A stretch of 64,000 bases of DNA, from assembly GCA_949358305.1 (NCBI GenBank), contig OX442314.1:51530581-51594580 (forward strand), written 5' to 3'. The notes under the pieces were generated by a model. It worked only from the letters and a program-made list of their open reading frames with translations. It did not search any database and was not told the origin of the DNA. This stretch comes from Strigamia acuminata (taxonomy: Eukaryota; Arthropoda; Chilopoda; Geophilomorpha; Linotaeniidae). A program made the position numbers and the translations under genes. Below, piece after piece: positions 8,035-29,697 of the stretch (position 1 is the first letter of the stretch; each line of letters starts with the position of its first letter).

Positions 8035-8036
8035 CG

Positions 8037-8054
8037 TGGTGCCGAAACCCGGGA
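8037..8054 (+). other. Primer-binding site, complementary to tRNA-Phe 3' end
   Basis: The 18-mer TGGTGCCGAAACCCGGGA starts two bases after the 5' LTR. It is the exact complement of the 3' end of metazoan tRNA-Phe including the added CCA (from established tRNA sequence knowledge), so minus-strand DNA synthesis is probably primed by tRNA-Phe. The position and full-length match make chance unlikely. Confidence 0.85.
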
Positions 8055-8213
8055 GTATTCCGAGTTTTTCCAATTGCTGCCCATATAAACTGCTTTTGCA
8101 GTGGGGTTTGGCAATTGTCTTTGGAAAAACTAAGGTTTAAGTGGCGTTGTTATTCGCTACTTTTTAAGCAGTAAGATCATTCATTTGAGTCACTGCTATA
8201 GTTTCTGTCTATC

Positions 8214-10242
8214 ATGGCGGAAGGAGGTCATCTTGGTGATGACTCTACAAGTGTGTGGCCCGACTGGTTGCGTCGGGCGGGTGAGCGGCTTTACGAACGT
8301 ACGCCGCGCCCGTCTGACTCGCAGCCAAGGCCCAAGTCCGTGCATGGCGTTCCCTTGGCAGGGGATGGTCGGCCGCCATCCTACTCGCAAATACACGAGG
8401 GTGCTGCAATTGCAGAGATGGGGGCCTCCACAACAGATGGCTCCTATCGCCCCGACACCTCCTCGTCTGTGCATGAGTCTCGAGTGGATTTGTCAGCGTC
8501 AGCGGTATTGACTCCCCCGGTGCGAAGAAACCCCACCGCTCCTCCGGGATCTAGTCCGGAGGATAATGTTGCTAGGGAGGAAGTCCAACGTGAACCAGAT
8601 TGGTTGCGTTATTTACAGCGAGCCGAGCTGGCGCTGAATGAACGCGTTGTTCGAACAATGGAACAATTTAGTCATAATATCGACTGCAGATTGGTACATT
8701 GGAGGAATGAGACTCTAGGGGGGATGAGGGATGTAGTTAGGGAGGAAATTGTGGCTTTAACCGTGCAGCCCGTGGAGGGGGTTATTCCACCTGTTCAGCA
8801 GAGACCTCATGACACTCTGCCTGGCGACGGGCCTCCTCCTGGGCAGGATCAGGGGCCGAGACCGGTCCGCTCACGTATCCTGACGCCAAGTGAATTTGAC
8901 AGACAAGGTTTAGCAGGAGAAGGGGGAGCGCCGGAGAATATAAACCCTCCACTCCCCCCCGCGAGAGAGGCCATCGAACGTGACAGCCCAAGCGGGCTCG
9001 CAAAGATACGCTCCGTCGGAGTATGCCAACAGTGAGGTTATGAGGGACATAATTCGTTCCAAATCCTCGGCTGTCAGCCTTCCTTCGACGGCAAGTGTTG
9101 ACCGGGCAGCTGCTGCGCGCGGAAATTCAGTCAATTCGCGTCTCCGGCAGCGGACTTATCCGCCAATACCGGCTTTACAGCCGCGGTATGATTTGTCGCA
9201 TGTGAAATCGGAAAGTGTGCCGAAGTTTGATGAGACGGACCTATCTTATAATGCTGTTGAGCGATTCCTGGCGAAATTGCGTGCACATTTTGTTATGTCA
9301 CGCGTGTCGGAGGAGGCGTACATCGACTTGTTTATTCCTTTGGCCCTGGGTGGGAAACCGTTAAATTGGTTCCTGCGCTTACGCCATAAACCTAAAACAT
9401 GGAGTGAATTTGTCGTGCGCTTCCGCAGGGTGTATTCCCTGTCTGAGGCTGACGCGGCAGTCTTCTTACAAGATGCGTGTCAGGAAGTTGGAGAGGATAC
9501 GGCAGAGTTTCTGTGTGAAATGAGTCGTTACCTTGAATTGACAGGTGTGCTAGGGGATCGGCAGCAGTGGAACTTGGCTCAGCATTGGCTGCAGCCGCAG
9601 ATCACCGATACGATGGTCCGGTATGGCGTACATTCCATGTCGCGAGCGATAGATCTGGGTCAGGCGGCGGATCGTGAGTTGAAGATGCGTGCCCTTCAAC
9701 ACCGTAGATTTGACGAAAAAGGGGTTTGAAAGGGCCCAGTACCCGCTCCCGAACCCAAACCTAGGAAAGTTAGGCTTGGGGAGACTCGGAAAGTGGAACC
9801 GGCTAAGACAGAGAAACCTCCACCACGCCTCCAATTTGATAAGAGAAAATTGGTCGCGTTGGCTGAGGTTTTGGGCTATCCGATGGCGGATGGTGATGCG
9901 CAGAGTGTCGTCGGGCAGTCCCTGAGGAGTGAACCTCCGGCGCCGACACGGGTAATCAGTGCCCCTACGAAGGCCCCGGAAGCAAAGGTTCCTCCGGGTG
10001 TCGCGGTGGCGTTGTGTGGCCATTCCGCACACTCTTTTGCCAACACGGCAAGCCCTCCCAATTTAGTGTTACCACCCGGAGCTGAGTGGGTGCGAAATCG
10101 CAAGGATTGTTGGTATATGCGTGATATTGAAAAACGCATTGCTCTATGTCCCCATTGCTTCAAGCCCTGGCAGTTTCCGGGAAACGACCTGGGTCCGTCG
10201 ACCAACCCGTCCGAGAAGGCGGCGGACCCGAAACGCAAGTAA
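8214..10242 (+). pseudogene. gag: gag with a frame change and an in-frame TGA
   Basis: The first segment starts at an ATG (8214) and is open to 9035. The frame one base on is open through 8980-9729, stops at TGA (9727-9729), then continues in the same frame to 10242. The middle segment has the helical pattern of a Retrotrans_gag capsid (RFLAKLRAHF, LALGGKPLNWF, WSEFVVRFRRVYS). No classical CCHC knuckle is visible, only a CPHC pair near the end. The first shift lies near a run of seven C residues (8954-8960), a plausible slippage or assembly-error site. The TGA could derive from CGA by CpG decay. With LTRs this similar the breaks are recent, programmed, or sequencing errors. They are not repaired here. 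Confidence 0.8.
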
Positions 10243-13200
10243 ATCGGTCGTTGGCTGCTTCTACAGGTGGCCCAAGTGATTGGATTGAGCCACCCAAACC
10301 AGCAGAAGTTGATGCTGCTGTTGTGGCTGGTGCCTCTCCGAAAATGACAAATTTTATTATGCTGTCACCACCCGAGTTTTTAGCTTCTAAAGAACCGAAG
10401 CTGATAATCGGGTTGCAGGACCGTTGTCGCCGCGATGCGCCCTTCGTGAAGATAGCTTGGGTGAACATCGAGTTTATAGCCCTAATGGATAGCGGAGCAC
10501 AGACATGTATAATGACTATGCCGCTGTTCAAAAGGCTTTCCAAGGAAATTGGAGTGGAGATGGTTCCAATGGACGAGACGATTCGGACCGCGTCAAATCA
10601 AATTGAACGCGTCATTGGTTGTGTGCAAATTGCCGTCCGAGCTCCCTTGGCGGTAGTTTGCTTTACTTGTCTCATCATTGCGCAGGGGTCGCAGGAACTC
10701 CTCCTGGGGCTGGACTTCTGTAAGGCCGTTGGTTTATGCGTAGATCACGGCAATAACTATTGGTTTCTCCTGGGAGATGGAACGCGTCACCCCTTCCTGA
10801 ATGAGGAGCAAGCTCGAGCCTCGGATCCGGTGGTCCTCTTCCCTCTGACCAAGGAACAACCCTCGTTGCCGGAGGGAGTTGTCGTCCGAGGCCCGCCTCT
10901 GTACAACTTGCCGGGAATGAGGAATCCGCCGGTCAAATTACCAGAAAACCCGGCGGAACCCATTAGCTCGGTTAAGCAGGAGGTGAAGCCAGACGGGGGC
11001 ACCCCTTCAGTTGAAAAAGAGGAGCCCGTGGTTACTAAGCCGCCGATTGGTGAAGCGAATTGCGTTTTCCTGAGCAAGCGTGAATTTGAAGAAGAGTTGT
11101 TTGAGCCTCCGTATTCGGACAATCCCCACATTGTGAAGGTTGTTTTGGCTCTAAGGAACCCCGACTCTCAGCAATGGACATTCATTTGGTCTCCCCGGAG
11201 GCGTGAAAAGGCGCGCAAGAGTATTGTGCGAATAACGCGCAAACCGGGAAAACGGACCATGTGTTTGAGCCAAATGCGTCGGGCAGTTAAATTGCGCAAG
11301 GCGAGGGTGAAGGCGGCTTCTCGAAGCCCTTCGGTGGCCCTTACGGCTTCTCCCGTGGTGGGGGGCGGCGTGGGCAGCGTGGAGACTCCTCCTACTTTCC
11401 CTATAACAGAAGGTGTTGAGAGCACTCCTAGACAGCATGATATTAATTTTGTGCAATATATCCCGAATAAGGACCCGACCAAGCTCACTTGGGTCTACGA
11501 CCAGTTGTGTAACCAATTGGAGCCTAAACGCATAACTCATCTAATGGATGCGTTGAAGCCAGTTGCTCACATTTTTCGTGAGGAATTGGGGCTCTGTAAT
11601 AATACGCAATTTGAGGTGAATTTGAAGCCCGACTTTAGGCCGATTCATGTTCCGGTTCGTCCGGTGAATCCGGCAAAAAAGGACATTATCGACGCTTATA
11701 TAGACCAGAAAATGTCACAGGGAGTAATAAGACGCTCCAAAAGTGACTGTGCTGTAGCGCCAGTTGTGGTCCCGAAGAAGGACGGGCGCTGGCGCTGCGC
11801 TATGGACTTTAGGCCGATAAATGCCCAAACCTTGCCCGACGTTTATCCGCTCCCAGATATCGACAACATCTTTGCATATCTTGGTGGAGCAAAATGGTTT
11901 TCCATAATCGACGGAAGGGAAGCGTTCCATCAAATAGGAGTCCGACCTGGAGATGAACGATATCTCGCGTTTGTCACCCACAGGGGACTCTACGAATATA
12001 CGCGTATGCCCTTTGGTCCTATTAATGGGCCGGCTACCCTGCAACGCGCCATGAATCTTACATTGGCGGAACACCTCTACAAGTTCGTCTTTGTCTATAT
12101 CGACGATATTATTGTCTTTAGCAAGACCTTCGAGGAGCATGTTGTTCACCTGCAAAAGGTGCTCTCGCTCCTCGACAACGCCGGTTTTACCATGAACGCC
12201 GGGAAGACTGAATTGTGTAAGAGGAGCCTTGAGGTTCTTGGCCATATCGTTGAAGAGGGAATTATCCGACCCAACCCGAAGAAGACAGACGCTATCCAAA
12301 AATACCCAGTGCCTACTAACCTCAAGGAGCTGCAACGCTTCAAGGGGATGGTCGGGTATTATGCGTCGTTCTTCCCCGGTTTTTCCAAGACTTGCGAGGT
12401 ATTTCGTGTTCTGATGCGAAAAAATGCGCCTTGGGTGTGGAAGCCCGAGCACCAGGCGGCCTTTGAGTATTTGAAAAACCAGATTTCGTTGTCTACATTG
12501 CATAGAAATTTCCCCGACTGGAAAAAACCCTATATTCTCCAAACAGACGCTAGTTATTCGGGGCTTGGAGCCGTCTTGATGCAAATCAACAATGACGGTG
12601 TACGCGTTCCCATTGCCTTTGCGTCGAGAGCCCTAAACAAGGCGGAGAAGAATTATATGACAACTGAAATTGAATGCTTGGCCGCTGTGTGGGCCGTCAA
12701 GCGCTTCAGGGCGTATCTCGAGCTAATGGACTTTTACCTCGAGAGTGACCATAAGTCCTTGCTGTGGCTTTTCACCCAACGAGAGCCAAAGGGCCGATTG
12801 GCGCGCTGGATTCTTTCTTTGTCGGAATACCGTTTCACGTTCCTACATTGCAGTGGAACAAAGAATCGGGTTGCCGATGCGTTAAGCCGCGCCCCTGTCG
12901 ACCCACCAATCGAGTTGGATGATGAGGATTGTCCAGCTTTGGACGACACATGTTATTGTGCGTTCTTTGACGATTACAGGGACTGGCCCGTGCCAAAGAT
13001 GGAGGAGTTGGAAGATTTAACGCTTTTCAAACCATCAAATGCTAAAATTGTTCGAGCTGTCACAATGCGTCGTCAAAAACGCATCTTGCTCGCCAGGTTG
13101 GCCGGGGCGGCTCTGGGGTCGGTGGATATTAGTCCGGTGGACAACAACCTTCCAAAAAGGAAGAGGGGACGTCCACGAAAGCACCCGATCGCCGGAGGAC

Positions 13201-13601
13201 CAACACCAGTTGGAGCTACTCCGGTGAAAAGGAAGAGGGGCCGACCAAGGAAGCATCCGGTCGTCCAAAACCCAATGATTGATGGGCTCGTTTCCGATGA
13301 TGAGGAGTCCGTGGCAATTTCTCTCCCTGCTGGGGATCCCCCCGCAAAGAGGAAAAGGGGCCGCCCGAGGAAACACCCAATTATTGAGGACCCTGCGGAG
13401 CGTCTGGCCTCCGAGGAGGGAGAGTCCATGGCGGTTTCCTTGCCTGGGGACGTCCCTGTGAAAAGGAAGAGGGGGCGACCGAAGAAGGTTGTGGAGAAGA
13501 GACCTGTTGGCAGGCCCAAAAAGGCTCCCATAATTTTCGACCGTGCTTCCGACTCCGAAGGCAGTGAAATGTCCCTTTTAAGTGGGGAGCCGCCGGGCTG
13601 A
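10146..13601 (+). CDS. pol: pol: protease, reverse transcriptase, RNase H and AT-hook tail
   Basis: Open for 1151 codons, probably entered by the frameshift at 10179 rather than its own ATG. In order: an aspartic protease with MDSGAQTC near codon 115; RT with the fingers/palm phrase RWRCAMDFRPIN and the active-site box YIDD near codon 651; an RNase H with QTDASYSGLGAVL near codon 799; a linker; then five AT-hook-like motifs (codons about 1003-1130). The integrase follows in another frame. The enzymatic motifs are intact. Products would convert the genomic RNA to cDNA in cytoplasmic particles. An AT-hook block between RNase H and integrase is not a normal part of Ty3/Gypsy pol. Confidence 0.93.
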   Translation: MSPLLQALAVSGKRPGSVDQPVREGGGPETQVNRSLAASTGGPSDWIEPPKPAEVDAAVVAGASPKMTNFIMLSPPEFLASKEPKLIIGLQDRCRRDAPFVKIAWVNIEFIALMDSGAQTCIMTMPLFKRLSKEIGVEMVPMDETIRTASNQIERVIGCVQIAVRAPLAVVCFTCLIIAQGSQELLLGLDFCKAVGLCVDHGNNYWFLLGDGTRHPFLNEEQARASDPVVLFPLTKEQPSLPEGVVVRGPPLYNLPGMRNPPVKLPENPAEPISSVKQEVKPDGGTPSVEKEEPVVTKPPIGEANCVFLSKREFEEELFEPPYSDNPHIVKVVLALRNPDSQQWTFIWSPRRREKARKSIVRITRKPGKRTMCLSQMRRAVKLRKARVKAASRSPSVALTASPVVGGGVGSVETPPTFPITEGVESTPRQHDINFVQYIPNKDPTKLTWVYDQLCNQLEPKRITHLMDALKPVAHIFREELGLCNNTQFEVNLKPDFRPIHVPVRPVNPAKKDIIDAYIDQKMSQGVIRRSKSDCAVAPVVVPKKDGRWRCAMDFRPINAQTLPDVYPLPDIDNIFAYLGGAKWFSIIDGREAFHQIGVRPGDERYLAFVTHRGLYEYTRMPFGPINGPATLQRAMNLTLAEHLYKFVFVYIDDIIVFSKTFEEHVVHLQKVLSLLDNAGFTMNAGKTELCKRSLEVLGHIVEEGIIRPNPKKTDAIQKYPVPTNLKELQRFKGMVGYYASFFPGFSKTCEVFRVLMRKNAPWVWKPEHQAAFEYLKNQISLSTLHRNFPDWKKPYILQTDASYSGLGAVLMQINNDGVRVPIAFASRALNKAEKNYMTTEIECLAAVWAVKRFRAYLELMDFYLESDHKSLLWLFTQREPKGRLARWILSLSEYRFTFLHCSGTKNRVADALSRAPVDPPIELDDEDCPALDDTCYCAFFDDYRDWPVPKMEELEDLTLFKPSNAKIVRAVTMRRQKRILLARLAGAALGSVDISPVDNNLPKRKRGRPRKHPIAGGPTPVGATPVKRKRGRPRKHPVVQNPMIDGLVSDDEESVAISLPAGDPPAKRKRGRPRKHPIIEDPAERLASEEGESMAVSLPGDVPVKRKRGRPKKVVEKRPVGRPKKAPIIFDRASDSEGSEMSLLSGEPPG
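10179..10229 (+). promoter_or_regulatory. Programmed -1 ribosomal frameshift signal (gag to pol)
   Basis: The heptamer GGGAAAC at 10179-10185 is positioned as G GGA AAC relative to the gag frame, exactly as simultaneous-slippage signals require. A -1 slip there enters the pol frame. Five bases downstream, GGGTCCG (10191-10197) can pair with CGGACCC (10223-10229), a perfect 7-bp GC-rich stem around a 25-nt loop. The gag and pol frames overlap across 10146-10242. The same heptamer is used at gag-pro junctions of some retroviruses (established knowledge). Position, phase, spacing and stem together make this a strong prediction. Confidence 0.85.
13153..13530 (+). other. AT-hook array within pol
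   Basis: Encodes four copies of KRKRGRPRK or KRKRGRPKK (codons about 1003, 1028, 1068 and 1106 of pol) and a fifth RPVGRPKK. The spacers are acidic (SDDEES, SEEGES). GRP flanked by basic residues is the established AT-hook that binds the minor groove of AT-rich DNA. The units with their spacers look like internal duplications. An inferred role is nucleic-acid compaction, nuclear retention, or steering integration to AT-rich chromatin. The spacing also suits multivalent binding. Confidence 0.85.
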
Positions 13602-15262
13602 CGAGTTCCAGATTCCGGACTTGCCACTGGATTTGGGGCCTGCGACGCAGACGCGGCGACAATTGGCCTCTCCAACACCCTCCGTCGACCCGGAGTTGTC
13701 CCAACACTCCGACCACTCCTGCGATGGCAGTTTTTACTCACTTCCTGCGGATCACCCGACAATTGAGATACTTCCAACGCAGAAAGCCATTAAAGAAGCC
13801 CAAAACGCCGATGAATGGTCGAAAGGACTAATCTCGTATCTCAGTTCGAAAAGTCTTCCGCCGGATGAAGAAGAGGCTGAAAAGGTCAAGAAACAAGCAA
13901 TTGACATGGCTTTATACAGAGGCTTGCTTTGCAAGTTCCCTCCAACCAAAATTGGTCAGCGGGTTCCTACACGTCGGATATATCTTCCACAGCCGCTACG
14001 CTACAAGTATTTCCACTGTCTACATTTCCCGCCTACCTCCGGCCATTTAGGCATCGAAAAGACTGATGCGTTTAAAAACACGCGTGTTTTGGCCGGGGAT
14101 AAAAAAAGATGTGACGGAGTGGATCAAGGTGTGCGAGTCCTGCCAAAGGGCGAAAGTGGAGCGAAGACTTCCGTACGGCGAGATGGAGACTGCGAAGCCA
14201 AGGAGGTTATTTCGAACTATTTACATCGATTATTTTGGAAAGAAGCTGAAATCGACTGGCGGCCACTGTTATGCGTTTGTCATGGTTGACGCTGCCAGTC
14301 GTTGGGTGGATGTACGCTTAACAGAAAGAGCCGATGTCTCCACCACAATCAAACAGCTTAAAAAGTTCACTTATCGATGGGCATATCCAAAAACCATCAT
14401 TAGTGATAACGCCCCCACCTTCCGCTCCGCCAAATTTCAGGCGCAGTGTGCGGAAATGGGAATGGTCAATAAGTACCTGTCTGTGTACCATCCGCAGGGG
14501 AACTTGGCGGAAAGACTCAACCAATCGCTTAAAACATGCATCCTTGCGTATATTGATGAACATACGCGTTGGGATCGACATATTGGTTCATTTATTCTCG
14601 CCATCAACTCTGCATACCAGACATCACTTAAATTTTCACCATATATGATGGTTACGGGACAGGAAGCACGGTTTCCAGGCGACGTGGACTCGGATACGGA
14701 CGACGGAGAACCACTACCACCAGACGAGGCTCAATTTCTCCATCGATATTTGCTACGCGTTCGAGAAGAAGCTAAGAAGAACTTGGAGGCCGCCAACTTA
14801 CGCCACAAGAGGTGGTATGACCGGAAACGGCGGCCACACGCGTTCAAACCTGGAGATTGGGTCACCGTCAAAAATCGGACTTTGTCGTCGACCGACAAAC
14901 AGGTAAGTTCGGGTTTCCAACACCGAACCGAGGGCGTTTACCTGCTGCATCGTCTTCTTGGACCGAATACCGTGCTTTTAATGGACGAGAATGGGAACAT
15001 CTCGCAGCCAATTCACGTGGCGGATCTCCGCCACTGGTATCAGGCGCCAGAACCAGAACCGGAAGTTCCTGACGTCGCCAGTGACCCTGAAGACGAGGAA
15101 TCTGGACTGGAAATGGAGGATTTGTCCCCAGCAGACCAAGATGACATCTCCGCCCGTGTTGCTGAATTTCAGACAGAAATTCAGTCTATTTGCATTAACT
15201 TCGCAAAGGAACGATGTTTACGCGTCAAAACATCGGAAAACACGGCAGAAGTCGTCTCCTAA
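13582..15262 (+). pseudogene. Integrase region, in two frames
   Basis: The frame one base on from pol is open for 13582-14289 with the integrase HHCC zinc region start (HFPPTSGHLG). The next frame is open for 14066-15262 and continues with CESCQRAK, a DDE core (YIDYFGK, SDNAPTF, then NLAE, with 34 residues between the second Asp and the Glu, one fewer than usual), a GPY/F-like module near RLLGPNTV, and an acidic tail. So there is a shift of +1 at about 13582-13601 and another at about 14050-14070, the latter splitting the HHCC domain. No chromodomain is seen. Whether the shifts are mutations, errors or recoding is open. No joined product is given. Confidence 0.8.
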
Positions 15263-16634
15263 TCGTGTCAAAGTGTTATTTTTGTTTCTTTATTGTATTT
15301 GGAAATTATTGCTAATTTTTACTTGTTTTATTTGTTAATCTCGAGTTTTTGTATTTTTTCCGTGTCCTTGTCTGCTCGTCGGGGCTCAAGTTCGCTATTC
15401 AGAAGAATTGGTAAGCAATTTCCCCGTGGGGCGGCGCTGAGTGTTTATTGGTCAGATGGCCAATCACGTGTTTTTCACACTTGTGCTCGGGCGCCATTTT
15501 CCCCCACTTGCTGGACGCGTTTACCTCGTGCAATTTCAGCTGAGTTCGACAACGCGTAGGATAGCGGGTTTGAGTGTTCGACGGGGCGAGAGACATTGGA
15601 TTTTAGTGTATTTGTAACCGTGAGTGTTATTATTTTTCATTTCATGGACAATTTTGTATTTTTATTCGTGAGTTAGAGTGGCGAACGCCGTCGCTCGCGC
15701 CGTGTCGACAAAACTTTATTTTCTTATGTCTTATTGTTAGAATTGTTGAGTTACTCGATCATTTAACTTCGTTTAGTTTGTTTTTACGCGTTGTTGGTTT
15801 TGTTTTGACATTTTTACGGCTCGGGTTCGGAATTTTCGTCACTCTCACTTTTTGAAAAACAACATGGCCGAATTTGCACTTCGTTGAGGAATTTTGTTGG
15901 GGTCACGTGACTGAGTCCTAGCCTCAATCCGGGCTTGGGCGTCCATCTTTGTTGGACTTAGAACATTTTTCTTCGCGTTTGTCTTTCGACATTTAGCCAC
16001 GCGCTCGTGCTCATATTTGTTTAGAATGCCTATGCATTTGCAGGACGCGTACTTTGTACTTTTCACGTTCTTGTTTGTATTCTACTTGGAAGAGCTTTGC
16101 TATTGCTTATTTGTTTGCACTTTAGACATTTTGATCTTTATTTTTAATTTATTCATGTAATGCAAGCTCATTTTTTGTGCGTATACCTTTGGCTATTTTA
16201 TGTTATATACTGGGTGTTCTGCATTTTAGTTGAAGCTGTATATTGGGAGTGTGCAACTGCATTTTATATTAATTTGTACCTTTTCTTCGAAATTATCAAA
16301 CTGTCAGTTATAGCGCTTGTATTCACCTTGTGGGTTATAGCGAGTATTTTGGAATCCGGTGCTTGTCAGCGGCCTGGATAGCTACCATGCTAGTTAGTGT
16401 TGAGGCCTATGCGTTCTTCGTTTTGATTATGTTCATTTATGCGTTGCACACTTATGTAAATTTCCTTATCAGAACCAGTGTAATAATTTTGAGCACGGTG
16501 TATTTTCTGTTTGTTCGCCATGTTTATTTACGTTGAACTTTGAATTTCTGTCCATGAAATTGAACCGTTTTGCAATTTATTGTTTGTTCATTTGTTTACA
16601 TTCTTTCTGTAATCTAGAGTAGTGTGTTGTCACC
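15263..16634 (+). other. Spacer between integrase and third ORF
   Basis: About 1.37 kb of T-rich sequence with only short frames, one of them hydrophobic (16160-16381). It might carry a splice acceptor or an internal promoter for the third ORF. I cannot identify either with confidence. Confidence 0.4.
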
Positions 16635-18416
16635 ATGCCGGATTCCGACAGTGACAACGAGAGTCTCGATGATGTTTCCACGGATGAAGAGTTTTGGGAC
16701 GACGAGGGAGCGCCAGGAGCGGAACAATGTCCCGATCCGCGTCCACGTTCCTCAACGCGTCGTGGGACTTACAAACCACCCTACCCGGTCCCGGATTTAT
16801 ATGCCGGTGGACCGATTTTGATTCCGCCGTGGCACCCCGATCATCCAAAAGAGGGAGGATTCCCTAACTTTGAGATATGTCCCTACTGCTCGGGCTGGGG
16901 CCACATCGAGAAGGGGACCAAAGAATGCCCGGCGTGCAAGGGAAAGGGTGCCCTCCGCCGTGGCCCATTTAAGATCTGGATGCGTCGGCTCCAGGCGATG
17001 GCCCTCCGTAAGCCCTTTTGGGACAGGCGAGATCTCTCTCAGTTCAGATGGCCGGAGGAGTTCCAAGTGATTCGAGGTGACGCGTACGCGACAACGCGTT
17101 TCGTCCGGCGCCACGAGACGTTCTGGAGGAACACCGTGTCGGAGGCCACGGCGGCCGGGATTAGACCTAGAAATTGGCAGTATCCGCCGATGAACTCGAT
17201 TGTGCCGGTAGAGGGAGCTTGTGCCCCCCCGTTGCCAGTGATGTTACGCGGGCTACCAGATGGCACGAGCTCGATTAATGTCATCCGACATTCTAATCAG
17301 GACGAGATGCCGACCATTACTCGCCCCCTCCACTCCAGGGAACTGCAGAAGAGAGAGGACCCCGAAACAGTGACCAGATGGGGAGCCACACCCGAGGAGG
17401 AGGAGCAGGAACGCGTATGCTGTATCGAGGAGCGTAACGAACATCTGATTGAGGAGATCGCCCAACTTCGTCGGCTCCATCTCCAGGCGGCCGCCCGCCT
17501 CCGACGAGCCATTCCACCAGATTCCACTGTGGAGATTCGAGATGTGACCGAGGCGGCAGGAGGACTTCCGGCAATTGAGGCGTCGCAGCCCATTTGTGAG
17601 GTGGAAGAGTTGGCTTTGGTCCCGGTGAGGAGGGCCGCGGAGGCGCCTACGATCATCCAGGAGGCACCCAAGATTGCGGGAGAAACCCCTGAACAGTTTT
17701 TGGCTCGGAACTATAGTGGGTACTCGCGTCATCAACAAGCAGCGCGTACTCGTTTGGAGCGACGGGCCCTCGCCAAGATTGCGGAGGGGCATATTCGGGG
17801 CGCTTCCGGAGGAAGAGTGGCTGGTGGCGCGCCGGCCCCGTGTAAGCGAAAGGCTATCATGCCTGCCCCTGAGCCGGACGTCATCCCCGAGCAGGCGACG
17901 CGTAGATTTGAGCGCCAGGCCCGGCGAGATTCGAGTCCCAGTTGCAACCCCCTTGCGGTTTCCAGTGTGAACGTAAGGGACTTGAGTGCTGCAGTCCAGC
18001 GAGCAATTTTCCGCCAGCAAAGCAATGGCGACTGGATGCGTTATACGCGTGTGAGTGAGTTCCCTTCAACTGTGTGGGCGCGCGCCGGCTTCGACGAGCT
18101 TTTCCCCTTCGGGGCCCTCGATTGGCAGCGGCCTTCTCTTCGCGACCCCACGACCTTTCTGCAAGCAGACCCGGACTTATGGCGGCAGTACTTTTATGCC
18201 GTCGCGAGGGCAGAGCATGGATGGCCGGAGAATCAGGCCATGGCTCTCTTCGAGTTGGACGACACCCAGATCGGGGCCTTGGAGCAACTCATCGCGTCCA
18301 ACCTCACGCGTTATCGTCCCCGAAACGAGGACCAGCTTGGGGATGTGATTGCGTGTCGTGTGGTGCTCCTGGTCGAGGAGATTCTCCGTGTTGTGTTCCC
18401 AGGAGATAGTGACTAA
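16635..18416 (+). CDS. Accessory ORF of the retrotransposon with CxxCxGxG zinc knuckle
   Basis: 593 codons, ATG in a good context (CACCATGCC), TAA stop, intact. It lies where env would be, but there is no signal peptide or membrane segment. The N terminus is very acidic (DSDSDNESLDD). At residues 82-104 it has CPYCSGWG...CPACKGKG, two DnaJ-type CxxCxGxG half-knuckles. A Glu/Arg-rich stretch near 250-290 may form a coiled coil, a basic patch KRKA lies near 410, and the C-terminal 130 residues look globular (RYTRVSEFPSTVW onward). Its G+C content matches gag and pol. No known family is recognised. Similar knuckles occur in two non-LTR loci of this window (26259-27398 and 50284-50497). Likely a nucleic-acid-binding or regulatory accessory protein, by inference only. 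Confidence 0.75.
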   Translation: MPDSDSDNESLDDVSTDEEFWDDEGAPGAEQCPDPRPRSSTRRGTYKPPYPVPDLYAGGPILIPPWHPDHPKEGGFPNFEICPYCSGWGHIEKGTKECPACKGKGALRRGPFKIWMRRLQAMALRKPFWDRRDLSQFRWPEEFQVIRGDAYATTRFVRRHETFWRNTVSEATAAGIRPRNWQYPPMNSIVPVEGACAPPLPVMLRGLPDGTSSINVIRHSNQDEMPTITRPLHSRELQKREDPETVTRWGATPEEEEQERVCCIEERNEHLIEEIAQLRRLHLQAAARLRRAIPPDSTVEIRDVTEAAGGLPAIEASQPICEVEELALVPVRRAAEAPTIIQEAPKIAGETPEQFLARNYSGYSRHQQAARTRLERRALAKIAEGHIRGASGGRVAGGAPAPCKRKAIMPAPEPDVIPEQATRRFERQARRDSSPSCNPLAVSSVNVRDLSAAVQRAIFRQQSNGDWMRYTRVSEFPSTVWARAGFDELFPFGALDWQRPSLRDPTTFLQADPDLWRQYFYAVARAEHGWPENQAMALFELDDTQIGALEQLIASNLTRYRPRNEDQLGDVIACRVVLLVEEILRVVFPGDSD

Positions 18417-19047
18417 GTGTTTAACAGTGACTTGAATCTGTGTGGACTTACTGAACGTGACTTTTTGTTTTAGCGCATTTTTTGGTTTGGGTGGGTAAGT
18501 CCCCATTCAAACGCGTGTTTAATTTATATTTTTATACTTCGTTTTCCAAGTTGTGATAACTGAATGTGATATTTTTTACCGATTGTGATATTTATTTCTT
18601 TTTGTTTATTTTCTAGTGTTTTCCGCGCCTTCTGTGACCACCTGCACGGCCGAAGGATGTTCATTCCTCCTCCGGCAATCACGTACCGGATGGAGATGAC
18701 CCTTAAATTTTCTTCCTTTGGCTGTGCGGCTGGCCACGGTGGGCGTTGGTTTTCCCAACAATCGAGGATTGTATGGTGATTTTTTGTTAGTTTTAGAGTT
18801 TATCTTAGTGCCAAATGCATTCTTGTTGTTGTTTAGTTTATTATTTAACGCGTCTGACGCGAATGTTTGATTTAGTCATTCTCTTTTGTTATCGCATCAT
18901 TCTTAAGTTTAAGTCCGCTAAGGTTGCGGCGAATCTAGTCTATTTCGATTGTTTATTGATTTTGATTATGTTTTTTGATTTTGTTCCTGCTTTGTATCGT
19001 TTCATTGCTATTTTAACCGGAGCAATAAAACTCTGGTGGTTGGGGCG
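18417..19047 (+). other. 3' noncoding region before the 3' LTR
   Basis: No coding sequence is recognised. The last bases before the LTR (GGTGGTTGGGGCG) are G-rich and are the only candidate for a polypurine tract, though pyrimidines interrupt them. Confidence 0.4.
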
Positions 19048-20206
19048 TGTCACGGTCCGGTGTTCACGCGTACGAGTAGTACGCATTGTTTCCCCCGTGT
19101 TGTGTTCCTAATAAACCCTAATTGTGTTCCTACCTTGTATTGTTTTCATTTTGTCTTATGTTTAGCCGAGTTCTCCTCATTTTCTCTCATCTCTTCCTTT
19201 CCTATCTCTTACTCATTCCTATCTTCCTTCTCTTTCTCTCACTTCTCTCTTGTCTCTTCCTAGTTTTTCTATTTTTGTTTATTGTTTCGATGCGAACTCA
19301 TTTGCATTTCTATTCTGGTCAGTACGCGTCGACGTTAGTCATACACTTAGTATGCACCGACTGTACTGATTGGCTCTTGACTCTTCCGTGATTGGTTGAG
19401 CTTGGATGAGTCCAAGTTTACCTTTCACCCTATCTTTCCCTTTTTCCTCAGTTAAGCTCTGTATCCCGAACGCGTAGGTGCTCCTTGGAGCCAGTGCTCA
19501 TGGCAGAGTCTTAGCTCACTTACGAAGCTCACTCGTTGCTTTGTTTTCACCTAGTAGTTCTGAGACATGACTCTAGGTTTTCACCTCATCTTTAACAGTG
19601 TTAGCTCACACTTTTATCCACTTGAACCTGTTGTTTTTTCGCTTCCTTTCGTGTTGTTTTAAGCGCCGTGACGCGTCGCTTTTTAGGCAGGATAAGTTTG
19701 TTTGGCTTTCAAACTGAAATCTTTGTGTCTATTTATTTCATGCATCCGGCGCGTAGCTTAGTTTCGCTGCTCCCAACGAGCTTTAGCTTAATTAAGCATT
19801 AGTTTGAGGTTTAGTTTAGATTTGAGTGACCGTGCAGGCCAGTTACGCACGCGTTAGCACCCATTTCGCGCTTCACTTCGACAGCGAGGCGGACGCTTGT
19901 GAGTCGGGACGTTACGTGTTTCGTTTAACTTCGTGTGATCTTGTGATCTGCACGATACGTTGCGGGACGCGCGTTGGGTCTTGACTCTGGTGACCGCTAA
20001 GCAAATTCTGTCCCCCCATTTTAGTAGCTCGGAATACCCGGCCAAAATAAATATTCGTGAAAAGATCGGGATCTGGAGTGTGTGCTACCGACATAAGGCG
20101 TGCACTCACGGCTGGGCAGGTCTCGAGGACCAGGCTCCCAAGATTTTCTGTATCGCGGCGTCTTTCAAACGCGTCCCAAACCGCTCGGGAAACGCGATTC
20201 ATTACA
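19048..20206 (+). repeat. 3' LTR
   Basis: 1159 bp, TGT...ACA, matching 6877-8034 except for the few differences listed there. It is followed by ATGT, the target-site duplicate, and then by the right half of repeat R. Confidence 0.95.
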
Positions 20207-21414: not shown

Positions 21415-21545
21415 ATATGGCAAAACTCAGGTGCGGGTGACAAAACTGTACGCAAAAACGGCAAAACTGCACTTAGAAACTTGAAATTTGAAAACTGTGC
21501 ATAGAGATGGCAAAACTGCTTGTGTAAATGGCAAAACTGCATGTT
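21415..21545. repeat. GGCAAAACTGC minisatellite, left cluster
   Basis: Degenerate repeats of a roughly 20-25-bp unit built on AAATGGCAAAACTGCA. A second cluster in the same orientation is at 22608-22690. The two clusters bracket the 1.1-kb segment holding the stem-loop array. Confidence 0.6.
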
Positions 21546-22082
21546 GTGGTGACCTCAAATATTCCTATTTGAGTGCGCACCATATTTCCAAATTGTCTTT
21601 TAAACATATTCAACAAGCTTATATGTTCTGTTTCAATGTAAATTGAAATAAAACATACATTAATAAAATATAAAACAAGACACAATATTACCCAAATAAT
21701 ATTGTGTTTTGCAGCAAGTTTTGGCCCAGCAACAGCGTCAACCAATCGCGCTGCAGCGTGCATTGGTTTGATGATGCTGCTAGGCGTGTGCCTGGGCGGA
21801 GCATCCCTTCCCCTCGCGCGTGCCCGGCTCAATTGTTGCACACGACCCGAAGGCGGCCGTGTGTGATCTTTGTGCAACTCGTCATCTGCGCAGCTTTTCT
21901 GAGCAGATTTAGAAGTGAGCCAAACGGTTTTGGCCCACTCTTCCCGCACTCTTGATTCCACCTCCAAACTGTTCACAACCGTGTCAAACTTCTGCCAAAA
22001 CTGCAAAGTGTGATCTGTGATTCTTGGACGAATTGAGTTTCATCGCTGGTCTGTACCCACTGTACGGAATAGCAACTTTCTA
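21546..22082. other. Segment upstream of the stem-loop array
   Basis: Contains a GC-richer core around 21710-21960. A minus-strand open frame of 177 codons (21473-22006) crosses it but has no recognised domain. It could be a promoter or leader region for a transcript containing the hairpins. This is inference. Confidence 0.25.
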
Positions 22083-22334
22083 GCTTGAATTACTACGTGT
22101 AATTTAAGCCATTTCTGTGTGAAACTAACATCGAGTTTACTCTGTTAGTTTGAAGGCTTTGTGTCGAGTTTAACTCCACAAAGCGATTTGTGTAAAGACC
22201 GATTGTTACGTCGAGCTTGCTCCGTAATAATCGAACCGCTGTGTGCAAGACGTATTCTCGTGTCGAGCGTGCTCCACGAGGATTTTAGAATATTTTGGCA
22301 ACGTATTTTAGCGTCGAGTTTACTCCGCTAAAAT
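22083..22334 (+). ncRNA. Array of six stem-loops, five with shared bulge-and-tip architecture
   Basis: Hairpins at 22122-22151, 22156-22184, 22200-22233, 22254-22283 and 22305-22334 each have an outer stem of 8-11 bp, then a 2-nt TC bulge on the 5' side only, then GAG-loop-CTC. The outer stems are unrelated in sequence (AAACTAACA, GCTTTGTG, CGATTGTTACG, ATTCTCGTG, ATTTTAGCG) yet pair perfectly or with one G-U. Tips are TTTA, TTTAA, CTTG, CGTG and TTTA. A preceding hairpin (22083-22109, 11 bp) lacks the bulge and GAG tip. Such covariation points to selection on folded RNA or on cruciform DNA. Strand is arbitrary. The layout resembles TAR-type RNA (pyrimidine bulge under a GAG/CUC upper stem), as an analogy only. 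Confidence 0.6.
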
Positions 22335-22607
22335 CCCGCGCTCACACGACGCCATCGACGCCATCTTGGAGCCAACGGTCAACTGTGAGTGTACATTTGA
22401 AGAAGAAGCCAGATCGACCCCAAACATTTTAAATAATACCTCCCTTGTATTTTGAACGATTAAAACTATCTAATTTTTCCTTTACTCTGTGTAAAATCAT
22501 TCCCCTAGACAAACATTTGGCCACAGAGTAGAAGTCCTGTACGGCATCTCTACGACGATTGCTTATTGAATTTACATAATTTAATAAGTAAAAACCCGGA
22601 TCGCCGC
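22335..22607. other. Segment downstream of the stem-loop array
   Basis: Includes a GC-rich GACGCCATCGACGCCATC duplication just after the last hairpin, then AT-rich sequence. No gene is seen. Confidence 0.4.
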
Positions 22608-22690
22608 AATGTGTAAATAGCAAAACCGCAGGTATAAATGGCAAAACTGCAGATGTAAATAGAAAAACTGCAGGTGTAAATGGCAAAACT
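22608..22690. repeat. GGCAAAACTGC minisatellite, right cluster
   Basis: About four tandem units of about 21 bp based on TGTAAATGGCAAAACTGCAGG. In the minus direction they happen to be translatable as a repetitive hydrophobic peptide, which is most likely a by-product of the repeat. Confidence 0.75.
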
Positions 22691-23469: not shown

Positions 23470-25053
23470 ATGACTTCCAGTCTCAAGAACACTTCAGCGA
23501 TAGCATTCACTAACAAACATGCTGCAAATCTTGTCAAATGGAATGTTGTACGTGGCAGCAGAATTTCGATTGGATCAACTCTCTTTTCTTACCAACTTAG
23601 GACAAGACTGCTGTCAGAATTCAAATCAGACATTGCTGGGACTGTTATCAAAATATTAAAAGAAAATGGCCAAATGCTAAACACTGGCGACCACGTCTTA
23701 ATCCTCAAACATTGTTTGCATCCCATAGTCAATGAATCCTTGTGCGTTGCATGCGGACTTGACTTGGCGCACAATACACAACGATCAACAGCATCCAAAG
23801 TGGTTAATCACAACTTCCTCGAGCTGCGCGTGAGCACAAAGCACGCAAAGTATATTTTGAGCAATGCAGATACAAAACACCTGTTGGACAGCAAGAAATT
23901 AGCATTGTTGGTCGATCTCGATCTAACGCTACTACACACCACCCAAGACCCAACCCCGGATGGCATTGCCGACGTGTTTTCTTACAAGTTGATGGGTTTG
24001 TGCTTCTGCACCAGACTGAGGCCAGGAACGAGAGATTTCTTGAAGAACATGAGCGAATTGTACGAATTGCACATTTGTACTTTTGGGTACGGCGAATACG
24101 CGAGGAAAATGGCTTGGTTGCTGGACCCGGACGGAAGTCTTTTTTCCAAGCGGATTTTATCTCGTGACGAGTTCGTACATCCGTCGTCGAAGAGTGAAAA
24201 CATGAAGTACTTTTTCCCGCGTGGAGATTCGATGGTGTGCGTTATTGATGACCGTGGCGACGTCTGGAATTACGCGCCCAATTTGGTCCGTGTGAAGCCA
24301 TATAATTTTTTCAAAGAAAATGAAGAGGTCGATTTGCAACAATTGCACCGGAATGATGATGACAGTCATTTGTTGCATTTGCAGGCAAAGCTGCGGATTG
24401 TTCACCAGACTTATTACAAGATGTACGAGAATTCGAAGGAGAATTTTGGCGTTCCTGATCTTAAGAAGGTGGTTCCGTTTGTGAAGAAGAATGTTTTGGA
24501 ATCGGTTTATGTTGTGTTTAGCGGTGTTGATCTCCCGCCGAACGTGTCGATAGAAGAAAGTGAAATAGGGAAGATGGCAATGTCGTTAGGGGCTGTGGTT
24601 CAGAACAAAGTTGTAGGCAGGGGTGATCCTAATGTCAAAGAGACAACTCACGTAATATCTACTCGTTTGGACACCGAAAAAGTTCACTTCGCTAAGGTTT
24701 TTAAAAATGTACATTTAGTAAGCCCGGATTGGTTGTGGTGTTGTGCGGAACGTTGGGAAAAGGTTGACGAAAAGTTGTTTCCACTGGTTGAAAACTGTTG
24801 TGTCGATCAAGGTAGAAATGAGGTTCTGACGAGAACAAACCTTGTAGTTAGTTGCACGACAGAAGACGGAGTGAAAATGGATCAAAAGAGAAAAAGAAAT
24901 GTTGTCGGAAAAATAACTGATAATAAAGGAGGTAATATAGTTCGGAGTAAGAGAAAGTTTGTAGAGTCTTTTGGAGATAGAAATGTAAACCCGTGTAAAA
25001 AACGGCACTTCAATTTACCAGCTGTTATGCCAACTTTTAGTCGCCATTTATAG
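23470..25053 (+). CDS. FCP1-like RNA polymerase II CTD phosphatase, intronless
   Basis: 527 codons in a single exon from ATG to TAG. Residues about 28-100 match the FCP1 N-terminal biotinyl-like module and its HCLHP...CVACGLDL tail. The FCPH catalytic domain (about 140-290) has the phosphatase signature DLDLT at 149-153 and the second acidic box DDRGDVW. A BRCT domain follows (about 342-440, ending VSPDWLWCC). The family dephosphorylates the Pol II C-terminal repeat in the nucleus. The tail is short and basic (KRKRN, KRKF, KKRH). Animal FCP1 proteins are usually longer and intron-containing, so this may be a retrocopy or a fast-evolving short version. It is open and keeps all catalytic residues. 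AATAAA follows at 25085. Confidence 0.88.
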   Translation: MTSSLKNTSAIAFTNKHAANLVKWNVVRGSRISIGSTLFSYQLRTRLLSEFKSDIAGTVIKILKENGQMLNTGDHVLILKHCLHPIVNESLCVACGLDLAHNTQRSTASKVVNHNFLELRVSTKHAKYILSNADTKHLLDSKKLALLVDLDLTLLHTTQDPTPDGIADVFSYKLMGLCFCTRLRPGTRDFLKNMSELYELHICTFGYGEYARKMAWLLDPDGSLFSKRILSRDEFVHPSSKSENMKYFFPRGDSMVCVIDDRGDVWNYAPNLVRVKPYNFFKENEEVDLQQLHRNDDDSHLLHLQAKLRIVHQTYYKMYENSKENFGVPDLKKVVPFVKKNVLESVYVVFSGVDLPPNVSIEESEIGKMAMSLGAVVQNKVVGRGDPNVKETTHVISTRLDTEKVHFAKVFKNVHLVSPDWLWCCAERWEKVDEKLFPLVENCCVDQGRNEVLTRTNLVVSCTTEDGVKMDQKRKRNVVGKITDNKGGNIVRSKRKFVESFGDRNVNPCKKRHFNLPAVMPTFSRHL

Positions 25054-26258: not shown

Positions 26259-27398
26259 TTAACGTTTCTGTCCGTGGTACTGGTTTCCAAAAAACCTACG
26301 AATTTTTGCAACGTCGTACTTGGGCGCCACACGTCGCATGGACGTGTCGTGTGCCAATTGTCTCGGGATGGCAAGATCTTCATCGCACGGCCATTCTCTC
26401 TTAACCATGCGCAAGTCCTCAGTCTGTTGACGAGTCGGCACACAACCCGACGTTAATCCACCGTGGTCGGAACGTTGTGTGTCTAATCTCTTACGTTTTT
26501 CGAAATGAATTCTTACTCTACGGTACACATTATTGTACAACTGCTTCGGAGCGAGTTGTTTGACTTGCATGCTCAAATCGTCGGTTAATTCCTCCAAGAT
26601 CTTGTTGATTTCACTAACAAGCACTATCGGCTGAGTTTCTTCCTGAATTAACTGTTCGTAATAATCTTTCGTTAACTTGACCAAATGAATGGACATTTCC
26701 GCCGTGACTTTCACGTGCGGTTTATCCAAACAACTCTGATAAAAACTTGATTCTCCCTTTTCTTCTGTGTCGGATTCATAATTCATTCCTTGCTGATTGT
26801 GAAAATACATCCACTTACCAACAGGCAAAAGAGTTTCTTTATCACTGCCGGGATGCGTCGCATCCAAGTGCCTTTCAAGATACATTCCTTGCCATCCACA
26901 CAGTGGACAACAAGATGGCGGCGGTGGCAACGAACCACCACAACTGATCTCATCCACCGGGTCTAAGCAATCTGTAGAAATCTCATTTCCTAATGGCTTT
27001 TGTGCGTGTATGTCGTCGACCAGTAGTGAATCTTGCTCTTCTTCGGTTGTATCTAACGCTGATGACACTATCGCCTTTAGTTTATCCAAAACATCGCGTG
27101 CTTGTATTTTTCCGATCGCTTGGAAGAGCGAAGAATTCGGTTCCAACTTCCATTCCTCGTCCCAGGGGCATGATACTTCCGTGCAAGGCTTCGCGAAGAT
27201 TGCCAAACCGGGCTGCAATTGTTTGTGGCTTGGCCTCTGCTTGGTGCCTGAGCAGTTGAAGCAAGGCAGTAGCCACGCTCCGAGTCGCCAATAGCCCTGT
27301 CCGCTGCACATGGTGCACGTATCCCATATGATTCGCGCTCGTTTTGGCAAACTTTGCAGTGTCTCATCGTTGGATCGTTTCCGCGTGCTCGTGGTCAT
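26259..27398 (-). CDS. CxxCxGxG and C2H2 zinc-finger protein
   Basis: 379 codons, single exon, ATG to TAA. An N-terminal basic stretch (KRSN...LPKRAR) is followed by CTMCSGQG...CFNCSGTK at residues 28-51, a pair of DnaJ-type half-knuckles. A C2H2-like finger sits at C164-x2-C167-x9-H177-x4-H182. The middle and C-terminal parts are acidic then helical, ending basic. No named family is recognised. The knuckle and the residues after it (GTKQRPSHKQLQPG) are similar to the exon at 50284-50497 and, less closely, to the retrotransposon ORF at 16635. A nuclear nucleic-acid-binding role is possible. The intact frame and its own TATA element suggest an active gene. Confidence 0.7.
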   Translation of the reverse strand: MTTSTRKRSNDETLQSLPKRARIIWDTCTMCSGQGYWRLGAWLLPCFNCSGTKQRPSHKQLQPGLAIFAKPCTEVSCPWDEEWKLEPNSSLFQAIGKIQARDVLDKLKAIVSSALDTTEEEQDSLLVDDIHAQKPLGNEISTDCLDPVDEISCGGSLPPPPSCCPLCGWQGMYLERHLDATHPGSDKETLLPVGKWMYFHNQQGMNYESDTEEKGESSFYQSCLDKPHVKVTAEMSIHLVKLTKDYYEQLIQEETQPIVLVSEINKILEELTDDLSMQVKQLAPKQLYNNVYRRVRIHFEKRKRLDTQRSDHGGLTSGCVPTRQQTEDLRMVKREWPCDEDLAIPRQLAHDTSMRRVAPKYDVAKIRRFFGNQYHGQKR

Positions 27399-28695: not shown

Positions 28696-29697
28696 TTACA
28701 ATTCAGACTGGTCAACAAACTTTCCATCCCACTGCGTCCATTGCATTCCAGTTGGTGTTTCGGGTTTAACTTTCCTTTTGCGAACATCTTCCCAGTTGTT
28801 GCTTAAAACTGTCCCCCCAGACTCGACGAAAGATTTATTCATCGCTCTTCTCATTTCGTCCGAACATTGACCAAACAGCTGACCCATCAGATCATCACCG
28901 CCGGTTTCTTCCGATTCTTTGTCGTCACTTTCCGTAATGTCGCTCACAACCTTGTCCCAATTCTTTTTCGACGACATAATTACCTGCGCTTCTTCTTCTT
29001 CTTCTTCCAACGTTTTCCACAATCCGCCTTCCAATTTTTCCATTTGAATTTCGATCTTCGTTTGCCTAACGTTCCATTTGCTGTGCGCGGGATTAACCGC
29101 ATGCGCCAAATTAACGTCCAATTCGTAGGCAACTCGTTTATCGTTTCCTTCCACGCTGCATCGCAAACTTTGACCGCCAATTTGCACAGAAACTTCGCCC
29201 GGCTTCGCGTTTTTCACCAGAATAGTTACGATCACGTTAATTTCGGTTTGGTACCATTCGTGCCTCACCTTGATAAGACTACAGGTAGGTGTTATAGCGA
29301 TAGAACGAACGATTTTCGATTCCCTGACCGCAATTTCTTTCAGTTTGACCGCGCACCGATCCAACCACACGCCAAAAGTGTCTTTACTCTCGCTTAAAGT
29401 TTTTCCTTCCAAAAATGCCTTCTCCGCGTCTTCGTAATCGCCCAAATGGAAGCACGCAACACCTTTCCACAGCCTTAATCTAGGTTCTTTCGTTCCTAAT
29501 TCCAAGGCTTTATTCGCGTCGTATTTCGCTTCTTCGTACTTTTCAAGTTTCAAGTTGGAATTCGCCCGATTGACGTAATAATCCGTTTGCGTCGAGTCCA
29601 TCGCAATGGCTTCCGTGTACAAATTAATCGCCGACTCGTATTCTTCTCTGACAAAAGCTTCGTTGCCCTTTTGGTAGTAGTCGGCGGACGATGTCAT
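28696..29697 (-). CDS. SUGT1: SGT1 co-chaperone, intronless
   Basis: 333 codons, ATG to TAA. Three TPR-like helical repeats (about 5-105, NEAFVREEYESAINLYTEAI), a CS domain (about 142-228, beginning RHEWYQTE), and the SGS C-terminal domain (about 245-333, WDKVVSDI and MQWTQWDGK). This is the full SGT1 order. SGT1 works with HSP90 and SKP1 in kinetochore and ubiquitin-ligase assembly in cytosol and nucleus (established). The length is normal for the family. Animal SGT1 genes usually have introns, so a single exon suggests either a retrogene or generally intron-poor genes here. All domains are intact. Confidence 0.93.
   Translation of the reverse strand: MTSSADYYQKGNEAFVREEYESAINLYTEAIAMDSTQTDYYVNRANSNLKLEKYEEAKYDANKALELGTKEPRLRLWKGVACFHLGDYEDAEKAFLEGKTLSESKDTFGVWLDRCAVKLKEIAVRESKIVRSIAITPTCSLIKVRHEWYQTEINVIVTILVKNAKPGEVSVQIGGQSLRCSVEGNDKRVAYELDVNLAHAVNPAHSKWNVRQTKIEIQMEKLEGGLWKTLEEEEEEAQVIMSSKKNWDKVVSDITESDDKESEETGGDDLMGQLFGQCSDEMRRAMNKSFVESGGTVLSNNWEDVRKRKVKPETPTGMQWTQWDGKFVDQSEL

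Follow-up and report, generated by a model that had tools for sequence, protein, structure and literature searches.

A putative RNA docking platform in a centipede LTR: tandem predicted hairpins with a TAR-type core in a young retrotransposon of Ty3/gypsy type

In the TAR RNA of HIV-1 and HIV-2 and in 7SK RNA, a pyrimidine bulge that starts with U is set between a paired purine below and a G-C pair followed by an A-U pair above, and the other bases of the TAR bulge are replaceable. TAR is located in the LTR of a retroelement, and 7SK contains several such motifs per RNA. Structured leader RNAs occur as well in other LTR elements, e.g., the packaging and dimerisation leaders of retroviruses and of Ty3 and Ty1, which are candidate targets of Gag. 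Hairpins are also present in the LTRs of foamy virus and BLV, where they give rise to microRNAs; these have longer stems, are transcribed by Pol III and are conserved along an arm.

The arrangement seen in TAR and 7SK accommodates an arginine sandwich, in which, as described in an extract of PMC6189040, the bulge pyrimidine caps the arginine via a triple with the pair above, and the paired nucleotide before the bulge forms the base. The corresponding positions are U23, A27-U38 and A22 in TAR; the 7SK counterpart is a pseudo form, with the U40-U41 bulge as the cap over A43-U66 (same extract). Resemblance to TAR has also been claimed for coronaviruses (extract of PMC10970485). Such resemblance is easily over-read, and the comparison made here therefore rests on which bases are fixed and which are free, not on looks.

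The window (the whole stretch of 64,000 nucleotides analysed, from Strigamia acuminata) contains five neighbouring hairpins, h1-h5, that have a TC bulge, GAG, a tip and CTC in common, and a preceding 11-bp hairpin, h0. Coordinates and anatomy of all six had been proposed in a sequence-only reading and hold when read in the sequence. The array and its surroundings are as follows.

21460-21540, + strand: GGCAAAACTGC minisatellite that makes up the left half of the target
21541-21544, no strand: target-site duplication ATGT, left copy, read in the sequence
21545-22608, + strand: solo LTR of Ty3/gypsy type, 1,064 bases, TG...CA, with the array at LTR position about 539-790
22083-22109, + strand: h0, 11 bp with one G-U, bulge-free, GCTTG...YRAGC, weakly like motif B (see below)
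22122-22151, + strand: h1, 9-bp stem, UC bulge, GAG-UUUA-CUC
22156-22184, + strand: h2, 8-bp stem, UC bulge, five-base tip, GAG-UUUAA-CUC
22200-22233, + strand: h3, 11-bp stem with one G-U, UC bulge, GAG-CUUG-CUC
22254-22283, + strand: h4, 9-bp stem with one U-G, UC bulge, GAG-CGUG-CUC, predicted by local folding only
22305-22334, + strand: h5, 9-bp stem, UC bulge, GAG-UUUA-CUC, predicted by local folding and partial in the unrestricted fold
22459-22464, + strand: candidate poly(A) signal ATTAAA, 3' of the array
22609-22612, no strand: target-site duplication ATGT, right copy, read in the sequence
22611-22690, + strand: GTGTAAATAGCAAAACTGCAG minisatellite with a 21-base period that makes up the right half of the target

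The array differs from TAR and 7SK in having five tandem hairpins, a two-base bulge of which the second base is free, a YNNR tip and a centipede host; a relationship in sequence is not claimed. Like the packaging leaders, it would be part of the structured leader RNA of an LTR element and is a candidate target of Gag, but the literature extracts contained no tandem array built on a single common bulge-tip core. Searched against Rfam, neither the window nor five loci reached the gathering score of any family, and the open-licence literature on LTR hairpin arrays, TAR-like retrotransposon elements and Strigamia gypsy elements contained, as far as its extracts go, no earlier description of such an array.

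The owner of the array is a young Ty3/gypsy-type retrotransposon. When a 301-base segment was searched against the window's own assembly (237,517,015 bases, 157 contigs), at least 40 matches were obtained (40 of 264 candidates were scored, and all 40 match). Pairwise comparison of 20 loci gave a repeat length of ~1,065 bases, and seven pairs of copies among these first 20 loci lie 11.4-11.8 kb apart, six of which are 99.4-99.9% identical when aligned over the whole LTR; many copies are >90% identical. In pieces of three copies, Pfam detected Retrotrans_gag with a zinc knuckle, followed by reverse transcriptase, RNase H and integrase in order, with a protease match below the cut-off. Paired LTRs, TG...CA ends, a short target duplication and the gag-pol order (protease below the cut-off) are thus all present, as in Ty3/gypsy elements. 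The idea of a multi-hairpin noncoding RNA is consequently wrong as far as a free-standing gene is meant, since the array belongs to the LTR of a retrotransposon. The copy in the window is a solo LTR, as self-comparison revealed no second copy there; homology to other copies begins and ends at its boundaries. Minisatellites do bracket the segment, as had been reported, because the LTR inserted into a minisatellite; that the minisatellite is part of the element was rejected, as it is the insertion target.

Several other observations concern the copies of this element. A division into two LTR subfamilies was rejected, as half of the loci simply lay in the opposite orientation. L008 and L009, which are 12.5 kb apart and identical over 3.3 kb including flanks, probably represent a tandem duplication or an assembly effect and were left out of the pair count. 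In L012, two arrays lie on the same strand at a distance of 1.4 kb, in a nested or tandem LTR arrangement. The element has a third open reading frame of 829 residues (L023:1162-3651), for which there was no Pfam match, no homologue at E 0.001 or better among 7,998 candidates scored in a search of 5.8 billion proteins, and one weak match in the PDB (E 0.7). The window also contains a full-length gypsy element (6877-20206; LTRs 6877-8034 and 19048-20206, 99.5% identical and unlike the array LTR), which was rejected as owner on the basis of its dissimilar LTRs in self-comparison and a compared pol stretch of 37% identity. It has a third open reading frame of its own (16635-18416) with a CxxC...CxxC zinc-finger-like stretch (Pfam match below the cut-off); comparison of the third open reading frames of the two families gave no convincing match (best E 0.014).

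The segment folds better than expected from its composition. As RNA, the + strand of 22060-22350 reaches -92.7 kcal/mol versus -69.7 (sd 4.3) for shuffled sequences (z -5.33; 0 of 200 shuffles equal), which bears out the anticipated folding. The - strand gives z -3.19 (1 of 200 shuffles equal), and DNA parameters give z -5.63 (0 of 200). In the unrestricted fold, the mean pair probability is 0.97-1.00 for h0-h3, 0.39 for h5 and 0.001 for h4, because the arms of h4 and h5 enter longer-range pairing; all of h0-h5 form completely if the pair span is limited to 60 bases. The six-hairpin structure alone amounts to -72.1 kcal/mol against the minimum of -92.7. The longer-range pairing at 22254-22334 that wins the unrestricted fold is an alternative conformation that may matter. 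With its own partner, each outer arm of h1-h5 reaches -7.5 to -11.9 kcal/mol, and 19 of 20 cross-hairpin combinations are at -2.5 kcal/mol or weaker, the exception being h2 with h4 (-6.9); this comparison is of 5' arms with 3' arms, so that longer-range pairing using a stretch that overlaps the 3' arm of h4 falls outside it. A hairpin model, built partly from h1-h5, found h1-h5 and nothing else convincing in the window. The core word TCGAGNNNNCTC occurs six times in the window, four of them in the array (expected 0.85).

Further arrays are present in the genome, which had been posed as a test of the structure. Two TCGAGNNNNCTC cores 30-60 bases apart were found at 430 places (219 + 211), against 2 (2 + 0) for the reversed pattern; about the first hundred of the 430 places were listed individually, all on contig C1. 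Cores separated by 24-33 bases occurred at 31 places versus 1 in the control, and 26 of these 31 belong to one subfamily in which an h2-like unit precedes an h1-like unit, as in L052. This duplicated unit suggests that arrays change by whole hairpin units. One place fitting the two-core pattern was rejected: L063 (C1:50046851) is a satellite with a ~36-base tandem repeat containing TCGAGNNNNCTC, and has no array, LTR match or hairpin by rule.

For the analysis of covariation, 40 scored places (window copy included) were taken, and with them 20 places chosen by eye for divergence, these 20 all on C1; 19 of the 20 gave an array and L063 did not. Together with the window row and the second arrays of L012 and L052, this yielded 62 arrays, 43 of them distinct, and 41 distinct arrays after both rows of L052 were dropped due to its internal duplication. 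Relatives keep the complementarity of the stems, as a selected structure would: 2,895 of 2,939 pair cells are standard (98.5%), and 13 of the 44 others are A-C. Relative to the commonest pair, 22 types are changed on one side and paired, 22 changed on one side and broken, 9 changed on both sides and paired, and 1 changed on both sides and broken. Compensated examples are C-G to U-A and A-U to G-C in h1, and A-U to G-C and G-C to A-U in h5. When the partner is slid by 1-3 bases, pairing falls from 98.5% to 36-46%. On the sense strand there are 24 G-U versus 9 A-C pair types (binomial p 0.014, a guide only as the copies are related; 170 versus 13 cells), which points to pairing in the sense RNA.

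Shuffled alignments of 23 of 48 distinct 28-mers gave a mixed picture, to be read with the caveat that related sequences may exceed shuffles without any structure: cells paired (97.1% versus 75.7%), score (0.690 versus 0.262) and cells with a change on both sides (69 versus 22.4) were reached by none of 500 shuffles, while pairs with a change on both sides (9 versus 7.7; 84/500) and further pair types (19 versus 18.9; 293/500) did not exceed them. By mean diversity the bulge comes first (0.156), followed by linkers (0.132), tips (0.124) and stems (0.080), and GAG/CTC has 0.005. When 48 distinct LTR rows are compared, diversity of the GAG/CTC core is 0.004 versus 0.075 for the whole LTR, and none of 20,000 random column or triplet sets was as low. 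The claim of selection for structure is supported by this covariation (nine compensated types changed on both sides, 98.5% of cells paired), and an RNA structure is predicted with good support.

The core consensus is R-[U N]-GAG-YNNR-CUC-Y, counted over 204 of 205 hairpins, the other having a gap. U occupies the first bulge position in 204/204, and the second is C in 157, U in 42, A in 4 and G in 1. The 2-nt TC bulge described for the window is thus kept in its h1-h5, but in other copies only the first base is conserved. Below the bulge, a purine is found in all 204 (G 156, A 48), with C (155) or U (49) as partner and a single G-U. Above it, the G-C pair next to the bulge keeps its G in 203/204, the A-U pair is unbroken in all 204, and the two G-C pairs hold save for single cases. 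All 172 four-base tips found by pattern, a count that leaves out the five-base tips of h2, are YNNR (CUUG 67, UUUA 65, CGUG 36, UCUA 3, UGUA 1), which means that the outer bases of the tip also covary. The likeness to TAR proposed earlier is therefore more than a look-alike, since the fixed and free positions (U, purine and A-U in 204/204) match the arginine sandwich arrangement. What that arrangement requires (a bulge pyrimidine, a paired base below and a pair above) is present at the level of sequence. The core may accordingly be regarded as a candidate arginine sandwich, and the pattern makes an arginine-rich protein the most likely partner.

Such a protein is encoded by the element. An arginine-rich stretch precedes the capsid domain of Gag in all eight pieces spanning that part, and a second arginine stretch passes the rule in one of the eight; six further pieces beside diverged LTRs comprise five without a gag match and one with the 48% gag (see below) only. 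The stretch in eight of eight pieces makes Gag the leading candidate partner, with moderate odds, and the co-occurrence of Gag and array is that of one family. A repeated RNA-protein docking site is the best idea for the function of the array, putative as it is. In the form to which we give about an even chance, the array is a selected multi-hairpin platform within the RNA of the element, on which its own arginine-rich Gag probably docks; partner protein, exact RNA location and purpose (packaging) are what we infer from the evidence above. The tandem hairpins probably arose by duplication of one hairpin unit, after which compensating changes would have let the stems diverge until each outer arm matched its own partner and, one case excepted, hardly any other. 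All hairpins would then display one common small surface for binding, R-[U N]-GAG-YNNR-CUC-Y, while their stems are interchangeable. An arginine-rich protein, with the element's own Gag as the leading candidate, may dock at the cores, and with five sites in a row the RNA of the element would be captured avidly and selectively, be it for packaging, for dimerisation or for strand transfer.

Related gypsy families carry a different type of hairpin. The diverged LTR of L044/L067 adjoins a gag of which the capsid part is 48% identical to that of the array family. This capsid part has at least 151 matches in the genome (150 of 1,645 candidates scored), which fall into identity tiers, the array family being within the 48% tier. 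The 6 kb upstream of 20 of these matches were taken for analysis, and neither model R1 nor a regex found the TAR-like core in any of the 20 related-family pieces; it is thus not indispensable to the clade. By rule, such an arginine stretch is missing from 11 of the 13 sister gag pieces that were examined out of 20. Instead of the TAR-like core, the upstream pieces contain motif B, first seen in L082 and L092, which consists of UCUUG, a variable stem, a tip, the stem partner and YGAGA (later widened to YNRGA). Like the array, motif B forms short hairpins in the middle of the LTR, up to four per LTR, with unrelated stems and one fixed element. In contrast to the array, what is fixed in motif B is the foot of the hairpin (UCUUG/YNRGA, including a U-G or U-U pair that is mostly retained), the variable stem is on top, and the TAR-like core is absent. 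One example is located in the window.

43582-43683, - strand: motif-B hairpins in an apparent related-family LTR, the first 112 bases after TCAGT

This region (43450-43810, - strand) resembles the LTR of a related gypsy family, with UCUUG...YGAGA hairpins at 43683-43654 and 43610-43582 and a degenerate one in between. Motif B is absent from the window's array LTR, where h0 alone is loosely similar and is not matched by the motif-B model R2; weak motif-B-like matches at 7767 and 19939, in the LTRs of the window's gypsy element, were taken as chance.

In its earlier form, motif B was found 22 times in sense and never in antisense orientation in the 20 pieces, against 0.55 in shuffles. The LTR start and TCAGT (the first such word per LTR) could be assigned in 18 of the 20 pieces, L095 and L096 being dropped. 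In 400-base segments from TCAGT, the YNRGA form occurred 44 times in sense and twice in antisense, against 0.52 in dinucleotide shuffles, with 27 distinct hairpins; the YNRGA arm was chosen after the folds had been viewed, five segments (L082-L084, L092, L093) had defined the motif, and the 18 segments are not independent because they come from a handful of families. L094 has no motif B, and 7 of 20 extra sister pieces have no motif-B hairpin by rule. Of the 27 distinct hairpins, 25 have G and 2 have U opposite the fourth base of UCUUG, and this kept non-Watson-Crick pair again points to RNA; an exception is one further copy, L115, with an A at this place. Model R2, made from 13 hairpins, gave 56 matches with E up to 0.5 in 201,346 bases from 27 sources, 9 of them on the complementary strand; all were placed in motif-B arrays by position, those in the window being at 43582-43683, and 13 match by construction. 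In the motif-B alignment, pairs with a change on both sides numbered 7 versus 6.0 (155/500) and further types 22 versus 16.8 (1/500); its high pairing is partly built in, because rows were chosen for pairing and length, and it is the count of sense against antisense hairpins after TCAGT that provides independent evidence.

Every base of an LTR is present at least once in the genomic RNA of LTR elements, wherever R begins and ends. In 14 of the 17 segments having one, the first motif-B hairpin starts about 92-125 bases after TCAGT. On the 3' side of the hairpins, AATAAA or ATTAAA precedes the primer-binding site by about 110-240 bases; several sister LTRs also have AATAAA upstream of TCAGT. The sister-family hairpins are therefore predicted to be located in R. 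In L091, the primer-binding site is followed at ~3217 (element orientation) by further tRNA-like sequence, GGGATTTGAACCC, longer than that of its sisters. In the array family, ATTAAA was found 250-279 bases after the h3 anchor, with 57 matches in 58 anchored copies of 59 examined. A clear TCAGT initiator is absent from this family, where TCATY candidates only were seen. By analogy with the sisters, the array may lie in R as well; two AATAAA (LTR positions 103 and 118) and a TATAAA (125) are upstream of it and, if used, would place the array outside R.

Other functions of an RNA structure at this position have to be weighed against docking of Gag. Nascent hairpins might bind an arginine-rich element protein or a host factor of the HEXIM/P-TEFb type and raise elongation from the LTR, as in TAR. 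Conservation of the core would fit the arginine sandwich of TAR and 7SK, and the distance of the first sister hairpin from TCAGT (14 of 17 segments) is one where such control could act, but neither Pfam nor the third-ORF search found a Tat-like protein and the sister families carry a different class of hairpin. The TAR hexaloop, moreover, helps to recruit cyclin T1, and the tip here is YNNR rather than that hexaloop. Transcription control is thus considered unlikely, and we assign the same low probability to a post-transcriptional leader role, i.e., nuclear export, translation or poly(A)-site control by host proteins. The position of the array upstream of a conserved ATTAAA and the structure predicted in LTR parts beyond the array agree with such a role, which would not by itself need five near-identical bulge-tip cores. 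Drosha and Dicer need longer stems than the 8-11 bp plus 3-4 found here, and conservation peaks in the GAG/CTC pairs instead of along one arm; a precursor cluster of small RNAs, suggested by tandem hairpins in an LTR and by the LTR microRNAs reported for foamy virus (extract of PMC7104284), hence has very little probability.

The remaining explanations do without an RNA function. Cruciforms or protein-binding inverted repeats at the DNA level would be in line with the folding as DNA (z -5.63), and cruciform sites of a transposase had been among the original suggestions. They are disfavoured because the stems accept G-U more readily than A-C in the sense orientation and because the owner of the array is a retrotransposon; the bulge on a single strand and the U-G mostly kept in the sister class also speak against DNA, which leaves this explanation highly improbable. 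Duplicated palindromes in a functionless young repeat might seem conserved merely through recent copying, given that many copies are >90% identical. Compensated changes, a core diversity 18-fold below the LTR mean and linkers that vary more than stems (0.132 versus 0.080) argue otherwise, and recent copying is just as poor a candidate. Overall, selection for structure and likeness to TAR have stood from the sequence-only reading, while the free-standing noncoding RNA and the transposase cruciform have not found favour.

Beyond the docking platform for Gag, a wider scenario may be entertained tentatively, with chances clearly short of even. It holds that a centipede Ty3/gypsy clade carries arrays of self-pairing, mutually non-pairing hairpins in the R region, that one family independently reached a five-fold TAR/7SK module paired with an arginine-rich Gag, and that its sisters use UCUUG/YNRGA, the module having been swapped and the layout kept. 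If this is true, TAR-type recognition would exist beyond lentiviruses and 7SK, in multiple copies, and the copies would provide natural covariation data on the essential bases of the arginine-sandwich module. The two hairpin classes would also allow the exchange of retroelement RNA-recognition modules to be studied, and the core may help to find structured LTR leaders in further elements of arthropods.

Three further features were observed in the window. An open reading frame of 379 residues at 26259-27398 (- strand) contains a CxxCxGxG...CxxC stretch, has no Pfam match and is perhaps a stray third open reading frame of a retroelement. An open single-frame gene at 23470-25053 encodes an FCP1-like phosphatase with BRCT. 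At 28696-29697 there is an open single-frame SGT1 gene, which is closest to a Strigamia maritima protein (60%), and several SGT1-like S. maritima proteins are among the matches listed.
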